DNA of 64,000 nucleotides, taken from contig DASUHB010000034.1 of assembly GCA_036273715.1 (NCBI GenBank), positions 62,001 to 126,000 of the forward strand, given 5' to 3'. Below the pieces are notes generated by a model. That model had not been told where the DNA came from and ran no database searches. It worked only from the letters and a program-made list of their open reading frames with translations. Shown one piece after another: positions 16,713-18,740 of the stretch (position 1 is its first letter; each line of letters opens with the position of its first letter). Source of the stretch: Gemmatimonadaceae bacterium (GTDB taxonomy: Bacteria > Gemmatimonadota > Gemmatimonadetes > Gemmatimonadales > Gemmatimonadaceae). A program made the position numbers and the translations under genes.

Positions 16713-17792
16713 TCAGTCGCCGAACGAGACGCCCGTCGCCCGCGCCGTCATGACCACGTCGTGCATCGGGTCGACTCGTTTGGGCACGGCTAACGCCTCG
16801 GCGATGGGAATACAGACTATGTGCGGCGACTGCAACGCCACCATCTGCCCGAAGCATCCGGCCGCAATGGCGCGGACCGCTGCCCCACCGAAGCGCGTCG
16901 CGAGCAACCTGTCGTACCCGGTAGGCATGCCGCCGCGCTGCAGATGGCCAAGCACCAGCGACCGACATTCCTTGCCCGTTCGCGCCTGGATCTCACGCGC
17001 CAGCTTGTCGGCCATCCCGCCTAACCGAAGCTCCTCGCCCGGCAACGACGGGCCCAGCACCGAGACGGGGCCGCCGAGCGGCCGCGCACCCTCGGCAACG
17101 ACGACGATCGAAAAGTAGCGACCGGCACGATCGCGCGATCGGATTTTGTCGCAAACTTTTTCGATGTCGTAGGGAATTTCCGGAATGAGAATCACATCGG
17201 CCGTGCCCGCCAGCCCGCTGTGCAGGGCGATGAACCCGGCGTCGCGCCCCATCACTTCCATCACGATCACGCGATCGTGACTCTCGGCAGTCGTGTGCAG
17301 CTTGTCGATCGCCTCGAGCGCCGTGTTCACGGCGGTGTCGAATCCGAAGGTCGTGATCGTCCCGCTCACGTCGTTGTCGATCGTCTTCGGGACGCCGACC
17401 ACTTTCATTCCCCGCTCGAACAATCGTTGGGCGATGCGGAGCGAGCCGTCGCCGCCGATCGTGATCAACGCGTCGATGCCGAGGTTGCGCGCTCGTTCGA
17501 CGAGCTCCGCCGAGCGGTCGAGCTCGCAGTAGGTGCCGTCGGCGGCGATGGCCGGATAGTGGAACGGGTCGCCGCGATTGGTCGTGCGCAGAATGGTGCC
17601 GCCCAGGTGGGCAATGCCGCGCACCGATTCGCGCGTCAGCGGCACCACTTCGTCTTCGCCTAACAGACCGGCGTAGCCCCGCTTGACGCCCAGGACTTCC
17701 CATCCGCGTCCGATCGCGGATAGCACCGCGGCGCGGATGACGGCGTTCAAGCCGGGCGCATCACCGCCGCCGGTCGAAATCGCGATGCGCAT
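16713..17792 (-). CDS. pfkA: 6-phosphofructokinase, group III (mixed-substrate clade)
   Basis: A 359-residue phosphofructokinase catalysing fructose-6-phosphate to fructose-1,6-bisphosphate in glycolysis. Visible motifs are STGGGDAPGLNAVIR at the N-terminus, the phosphoryl-donor motif TIGGDGSL, the catalytic PKTIDND and the sugar-binding MEVMGRDAG. The donor residues are mixed. Gly in GGDGS, where PPi enzymes have Asp, indicates ATP use. Lys in PKTIDND, where E. coli PfkA has PGTIDND, is shared with PPi-type and actinobacterial group III enzymes. ATP is therefore the likely donor, but sequence does not settle it. The selW-like gene ends 38 nt upstream on the same strand, so the two may be co-transcribed. 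Confidence 0.92.
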   Translation of the reverse strand: MRIAISTGGGDAPGLNAVIRAAVLSAIGRGWEVLGVKRGYAGLLGEDEVVPLTRESVRGIAHLGGTILRTTNRGDPFHYPAIAADGTYCELDRSAELVERARNLGIDALITIGGDGSLRIAQRLFERGMKVVGVPKTIDNDVSGTITTFGFDTAVNTALEAIDKLHTTAESHDRVIVMEVMGRDAGFIALHSGLAGTADVILIPEIPYDIEKVCDKIRSRDRAGRYFSIVVVAEGARPLGGPVSVLGPSLPGEELRLGGMADKLAREIQARTGKECRSLVLGHLQRGGMPTGYDRLLATRFGGAAVRAIAAGCFGQMVALQSPHIVCIPIAEALAVPKRVDPMHDVVMTARATGVSFGD

Positions 17793-17830: not shown

Positions 17831-18073
17831 TCAGCCGGCACGCTCCGCTCGCGCGCGCTCGATCAAACCGAGCACCTCGCCTTCCTTGGCGTGACGCCCG
17901 AGCTTCGATTTTTCGAAGATCGGCCTCCCGTCGAGCGACACCTCGAACCGTCCTCCGCGCGACGGCTGCATCGCGATCGACGCATCCGGGTAGTGTGCCT
18001 TGAGCTCGGCCGCCAACCTGGTGGCCCTCGGCTCGTAGTTTCAAAGCGTACAGTATTCGATCGTAATCGTCAT
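17831..18073 (-). CDS. selW: SelT/SelW/SelH-family redox protein, probable selenoprotein with TGA-encoded selenocysteine
   Basis: Eighty codons read from ATG 18073 to the stop at 17831-17833, with one in-frame TGA at 18043-18041. Around the TGA the protein reads MTITIEYCTL-U-NYEPRA, which places it exactly at the second position of the CxxC/CxxU redox motif of the Rdx (SelW) fold. The rest (LAAELKAHYPDASIAMQPS, GGRFEVSLDGRPIF, KEGEVLGLIERA) continues the family without interruption. Conventional gene calling would start after the TGA and lose the active site. A SECIS-like hairpin follows the TGA. SelW proteins are thioredoxin-like, glutathione- or peroxide-linked redox proteins. It lies 38 nt upstream of pfkA. 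The alternative is a Cys codon mutated or misread to TGA. Confidence 0.82.
18002..18034 (-). promoter_or_regulatory. Putative bacterial SECIS hairpin after the SelW TGA
   Basis: On the minus strand, starting 7 nt after the TGA, GAGC pairs with GCTC. With small bulges the helix continues through GGGCCA against TGGC-N2-CC, and the apical loop is CCAGGT, beginning about 20 nt downstream of the TGA. This lies within the distance known for bacterial SECIS elements, and the loop holds the GG-T sequence reminiscent of the E. coli fdhF element. The structure was drawn by hand. Confidence 0.5.
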
Positions 18074-18079
18074 GCGTCC

Positions 18080-18274
18080 TCACAGGTAGCGCCATCGGCG
18101 CGTCCGCCGCGCCACTGCGAACCATACGCTTCCAACGCAGAGCAATGCCAGCGGCAGCCGTGCACCAAGCTCGCCGAGGGATCCGTCAAGACAGATCTCA
18201 TAGAACGGCACGGACGGTACCGCTCCCGGCAGCCGCAATGATTCGGACCGCCCTCCACGAATTTGCTCACACAA
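18080..18274 (-). CDS. Possible small membrane protein upstream of the selW-like gene
   Basis: An open frame of about 64 codons ends 6 nt before the selW-like ATG. Its C-terminal half forms a plausible membrane helix followed by a positive tail (LPLALLCVGSVWFAVARRTR). The start is unclear: only a TTG at 18274 or internal GTG codons are available, and no Shine-Dalgarno sequence is visible. It could be a short single-span protein, the remnant of a longer gene, or chance. I do not recognise it. Confidence 0.3.
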   Translation of the reverse strand: MCEQIRGGRSESLRLPGAVPSVPFYEICLDGSLGELGARLPLALLCVGSVWFAVARRTRRWRYL

Positions 18275-18323: not shown

Positions 18324-18740
18324 ATGCGCTCAGGTCATAGTCTGTGGGAGCTGGTCGCCGCGCTTACCATCATGGCAACGTTGGCGGCCATGGGAGCGCC
18401 GGCTGCCATCCGGGCCCGCGACCGCGCGGCGGCGCGCGCCGCCGCTACCACCATGCGCGCCACACTGGCATCCGCTCGCGATGCAGCACTCTCGAGCGCA
18501 GCGGCTGCGCTCGTCGTCATCGACGCGTCGGTCGCCACGGTCTCGATAATCGTCAATCGAGACACCGTCCTCCGACATTCGCTCACCGGCGATCTGCGCG
18601 CTCGACTTTCCGCGAGTCGAGACAGCATTCGATTTGGGCCAACGGGTCGAGCCTTCGGCGCGTCGAATACCACGCTCGTCATTCGATCCGGGTTCGCGGC
18701 TGAAACGATTACGGTTTCGCGCGTTGGGAGAGTGCGATGA
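18324..18740 (+). CDS. Prepilin-like protein with type IV pilin N-terminus (GspH-like)
   Basis: A 138-residue protein starting MRSGHSLWELVAALTIMATL. This matches a prepilin-peptidase site (Gly, then a residue normally Phe but here His, with Glu at +5) and a hydrophobic helix. The rest resembles GspH/FimT pseudopilins in size, with beta-rich sequence such as LVVIDASVATVSIIVNRDTV. Such minor pseudopilins sit at the tip of a type II secretion pseudopilus or type IV pilus. A good Shine-Dalgarno sequence (GGAGGA at 18315-18320) supports the ATG. No other pilus or secretion genes are next to it; the gene is an orphan and convergent with the next gene, 4 bp away. Confidence 0.75.
   Translation: MRSGHSLWELVAALTIMATLAAMGAPAAIRARDRAAARAAATTMRATLASARDAALSSAAAALVVIDASVATVSIIVNRDTVLRHSLTGDLRARLSASRDSIRFGPTGRAFGASNTTLVIRSGFAAETITVSRVGRVR

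Follow-up and report, generated by a model that had tools for sequence, protein, structure and literature searches.

A SelW-type selenoprotein gene with an in-frame UGA, paired with pfkA, in Gemmatimonadaceae

We identified selW, a gene of the Rdx/SelW family interrupted by an in-frame TGA, in a 64,000-nucleotide stretch of a Gemmatimonadaceae genome (the window); all available computational tests identify it as a genuine selenoprotein gene. The gene, its UGA, a downstream hairpin, the selenocysteine (Sec) machinery and a conserved gene order were all found computationally. Our joint reading, which we hold with great confidence, is that the UGA would be decoded as Sec by way of SelB and the hairpin, that the SelW-type product would carry a CxxU redox centre, and that selW and pfkA probably form an operon. 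The features at the start of the argument are:

17831..18073, minus strand: selW, Rdx/SelW-family selenoprotein of 80 residues (open reading frame read through TGA, with profile matches)
18041..18043, minus strand: in-frame UGA, predicted selenocysteine codon, residue 11 of CxxU (TGA in 69/69 genomes; Cys variants in relatives)
18078..18081, minus strand: GAGG, probable ribosome-binding site, separated from the ATG by 4 nt (from the sequence)

On the minus strand, the frame runs from an ATG at 18073 through the TGA at 18043-18041 to a terminal stop TGA at 17833-17831, and it translates as MTITIEYCTL-[TGA]-NYEPRATRLAAELKAHYPDASIAMQPSRGGRFEVSLDGRPIFEKSKLGRHAKEGEVLGLIERARAERAG-stop, with the residues after the in-frame TGA beginning NYEPRA and a redox motif, C8-T-L-U11, near the N-terminus. 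The start is well placed, given an in-frame stop two codons 5′ of the ATG and the GAGG just before it. When read through, selW scored above the curated cut-offs of three profiles: Rdx (PF10262; 73.2 bits versus 22.6), SelTWH_Campy (NF041051; 94.3 bits versus 88) and CXXU_selWTH (TIGR02174; 61.5 bits versus 34.2). The family match covers residues on either side of the TGA, which the initial annotation had correctly located at the CxxU position between family-like flanks. Judged from its sequence, the assignment to the Rdx/SelW family is unambiguous, and solved structures related to the product are PDB 2obk, 2fa8 and 2p0g. SelW proteins are regarded as thiol oxidoreductases, and in the thioredoxin-like product the Cys-x-x-Sec pair would form a thiol/selenol redox centre. 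Upstream of selW, a divergent open reading frame (18324-18740 of the window, plus strand) has a prepilin-like N-terminus (GHSLWELVAALTIMATLAAMG) and possibly encodes a GspH/FimT-type pseudopilin.

Were the TGA a true stop, the locus would be a pseudogene, or its product would be a short downstream open reading frame of 61 aa starting at a TTG at 18016. Ordinary gene callers would detect only this TTG frame, which lacks the CxxU motif (the loss of the active site had been foreseen), and the shortened protein would be without both the redox centre and the first strand. We looked for selW in an order-level sample of 99 genomes, consisting of the window's own and its relatives, and found it in 69, every one of which has TGA at codon 11. 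From a phylum-wide draw of 200 genomes, 99 had a SelW match, and the best match contained an in-frame TGA in 96 of these. Variability across the three codon positions is coding-like on both sides of the TGA, with values of 0.31/0.21/0.47 ahead of it and 0.34/0.24/0.47 past it, and flat 5′ of the selW start (0.74/0.72/0.73); codons in both parts thus show protein-level constraint, and the sequence preceding the start does not. This constraint, the identical position of the TGA in 69 genomes and the compensatory hairpin described below leave termination at the TGA very improbable. A sequencing or assembly error converting TGC or TGT to TGA might be suspected because the source assembly is a draft metagenome-type bin. 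However, the TGA is common to 69 separate assemblies and also occurs in named records (JAICLH010000027, JAQBQB010000030 and others), so the codon is genuine, as originally proposed, and the likelihood of such an error is negligible.

Selenocysteine as the preferred reading of the UGA is further supported by a conserved RNA structure just past the codon, of which two parts can be distinguished:

18008..18026, minus strand: core bacterial SECIS stem-loop (covariation, tree, loop G in 68/69 genomes)
18002..18034, minus strand: outer hairpin extension GAGC/GCUC, shared by the window genome with a minority of relatives but not order-wide

The core stem pairs 18026-18019 with 18015-18008, with one A.C mismatch in the window genome, and encloses a loop at 18018-18016 (GGU here) that starts 22 nt past the UGA. 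This is the arrangement by which a bacterial SECIS is recognized, namely a hairpin just past the UGA with a small apical loop containing a G. Numbering columns from the first base past the TGA, such that columns 15-22 pair with 26-33, we took the variable columns up to column 45 and tested every pairwise combination for covariation. The top pair was 15-33 (18026-18008; z 9.1), paired in 65/69 genomes versus 41.8 expected and occurring as G-C (42), A-T (15) or C-G (7), followed by 18-30 (18023-18011; z 7.9), paired in 68/69 versus 59.7 expected. Both of these best-covarying pairs are stem pairs, which supports the SECIS-like hairpin that had been suggested. The covarying columns are third codon positions, and most of the substitutions there leave the amino acid unchanged (Arg CGG/CGA/CGC with Ala GCC/GCT/GCG). 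A PfkA-based tree requires at least 15 changes in each of columns 15 and 33 and at least 17 changes in the state of the pair, indicating that the two columns nearly always move together. Third positions 21 and 27, within the stem, are invariant on this tree, versus 16-25 changes at positions 9, 12, 39, 42 and 45 outside it. The stability of the hairpin exceeds that of ~96% of synonymous recodings (median); the single-sequence folding energy in the window genome was no better than that of shuffles (z −0.02), and Rfam gave no usable match to the hairpin. The initial annotation had the hairpin beginning 7 nt after the TGA, which fits the outer stem in the window genome (about 7 nt), whereas the order-wide conserved hairpin starts at 15 nt. 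In the proposed mechanism, SelB would bind the hairpin 15-33 nt past the UGA and deliver Sec-tRNA to the ribosome at codon 11.

Comparison of CxxC and CxxU homologues, as had been recommended, recovered Cys versions at the same column. One is found in G166, a complete single-contig genome of genus g23, where SelW reads IALCVG-C-NYQPRA with TGC (Cys) at the TGA codon (locus L146, G166:C1:2895500-2899500; gap to pfkA 5 bp). This genome has no selA match and no tRNA-Sec above the family cut-off, its best score of 43.9 bits being similar to tRNA-Ser cross-matches. Its hairpin is broken, with G.G at stem pair 15-33, the otherwise invariant C21 replaced by G and the loop G23 replaced by C. Genomes of the same genus with TGA in selW have selA (G027, G052 and G163) or, in G203, no selA match but a tRNA-Sec at 75 bits. 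Similarly, the Chloroflexi homolog L064 has Cys at the column where other Chloroflexi homologs have TGA.

The claim that the organism decodes selenocysteine is supported by the gene content of the source genome, a 4.34-Mb draft of 81 contigs (98.7% complete, 2.6% contamination) in which the window lies on contig 34. The Sec trait is complete, with selA, selB, selC and selD all present on contigs other than the window's: selA scored 540.7 bits, a full-length selB 331.9 bits, selD 380 bits and tRNA-Sec, with anticodon UCA, 76.7 bits (gathering score 47). The selD gene adjoins tRNA-Sec and has its own in-frame TGA (...ARCAG-U-ASKMGP):

L018 about 2451-1410, minus strand on L018 (G000:C19:11075-11992): selD, itself a selenoprotein gene (in-frame TGA)

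Sec-containing SelD has been listed for many bacteria (PMC1794560). Sec-tRNA would here be made by SelA using selenophosphate from SelD. Across the 99 genomes, SelW and SelA were both found in 64 and both missing from 22, with 13 discordant cases (5 and 8; odds ratio 35, Fisher P = 5e-11). The genomes positive for SelW and negative for SelA are incomplete drafts, and tRNA-Sec exceeded 70 bits in five of six tested genomes of this kind (G002, G007, G092, G095 and G203; not G060). Conversely, eight genomes have selA without a SelW match (G004, G006, G021, G029, G030, G035, G056 and G066); some are incomplete drafts, and other selenoproteins may maintain the Sec trait in these eight. Neither selA nor SelW was found in G026 and G051 (genus g22), G034 and G058 (genus g30) or other genomes of family f1, which belong to several genera and retain pfkA, suggesting that this family has lost the Sec trait repeatedly.

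The gene following selW in the window is:

16713..17792, minus strand: pfkA, 6-phosphofructokinase of the mixed-substrate subfamily (TIGR02483, PFK_mixed; profile match and adjacency)

It starts 41 bp past the last sense codon of selW. Among the 61 genomes of the order having both genes, selW immediately precedes pfkA in the same orientation in 60, covering three families; the median gap is 26.5 bp, and in several genomes the two genes overlap. In family f3 (L094, L098 and L049), the last few bases of the selW match also belong to the beginning of pfkA, which suggests translational coupling. The pair also occurs in two genomes of family f4 of the same class, while families f5, f7, f8 and f9 of the class have a TGA-containing SelW located away from pfkA, and none of nine loci outside the phylum had the pair when searched by motif to a distance of about 3 kb. 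The pairing therefore characterizes the order together with one or more sister families. We considered whether large open frames at some homologs (for example 767 aa in G074) represent fusions and rejected this, as selW and pfkA in G074 are separated by a gap of 8 bp; in GC-rich DNA, long open frames often arise by chance. A promoter scan found none, and terminator-like matches fall inside genes. Based on the gene order, selW would be the upstream gene of a probable, order-wide selW-pfkA operon and the two would be co-transcribed. We found no relevant report linking SelW to pfkA, phosphofructokinase or Gemmatimonadota among open-licence papers, and the near-invariant pairing across the order appears to be unreported.

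The initial annotation also held that the locus couples a SelW redox protein to pfkA, a statement that stands as conserved gene order only. The pairing suggests a role for SelW at or near PfkA, for example in reversing PfkA oxidation, through which SelW may protect or tune PfkA or its pathway. The stronger proposal, that in Gemmatimonadaceae and sister families SelW serves PfkA or its immediate pathway as a dedicated, selenium-dependent redox partner, is tentative and in our estimate rather unlikely. A direct thiol switch on PfkA is disfavoured because no PfkA cysteine is tied to the presence of SelW, the sole well-conserved one, C214, occurring in 57/59 linked and 15/18 unlinked sequences. 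Nearly balanced, if slightly on the improbable side, is the alternative that the UGA encodes Sec and the gene order has no functional meaning for PfkA, reflecting an old arrangement, a shared promoter or chance. The lack of a cysteine that tracks SelW is consistent with this, as are the separate locations of the genes in f5, f7, f8 and f9 and in other phyla and the 18 genomes that retain pfkA without selW; in contrast, adjacency in 60/61 genomes from three families, in some with the genes overlapping by a few bases, and survival of the pair after loss of the Sec trait in G166 argue against it. As a separate observation on cellular thiols, a 607-aa frame in the source genome (G000:C2:29057-30349) has two partial BshC matches that both fall short of the cut-off (130.5 and 127.2 bits versus 265.8), which hints at bacillithiol.

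Since standard annotation would truncate or miss selW, a selenoprotein active site present in most genomes of the order is easily overlooked. The function of SelW has been called unclear (PMC1088965), and its near-invariant pairing with a phosphofructokinase gene, retained after a Sec-to-Cys switch, provides a concrete, testable hypothesis. If SelW were a partner of PfkA, entry into glycolysis would be tuned by a selenoprotein, and the widespread SelW family would have a specific bacterial role.

A precedent for thioredoxin-type control of phosphofructokinase is chloroplast AtPFK5, a redox-controlled enzyme and thioredoxin-f target (PMC7998735), although as a plant enzyme acting with thioredoxin it can serve as an analogy only, and it has a regulatory Cys, whereas PfkA here has none that tracks SelW. 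Closer are the bacterial SelW-like selenoproteins (Zhang et al. 2005, 2006; PMC1088965, PMC1794560), which share with this locus the Rdx family, CxxU, an in-frame UGA, a SECIS right after the UGA whose small apical loop contains a G, and few Cys homologs in Sec-using organisms; the locus differs in that pfkA is conserved next to it and in its host, which is from Gemmatimonadota, a lineage that PMC1794560 does not name. The epsilonproteobacterial SelW is also similar, as the window's selW exceeds the equivalog cut-off (NF041051; PMC4607533). According to PMC4607533, these genes were wholly missed by annotation and epsilonproteobacterial selenoproteins have a short apical hairpin that includes an invariant guanosine, as do marine selenoproteins (PMC1088965), and the hairpin here matches both. 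The phylum differs, and a link to pfkA is not mentioned in the passages of PMC4607533 consulted. Overall, the SelW-like family itself is already known and this locus is a further member of it; the pfkA neighbour is the less expected part.
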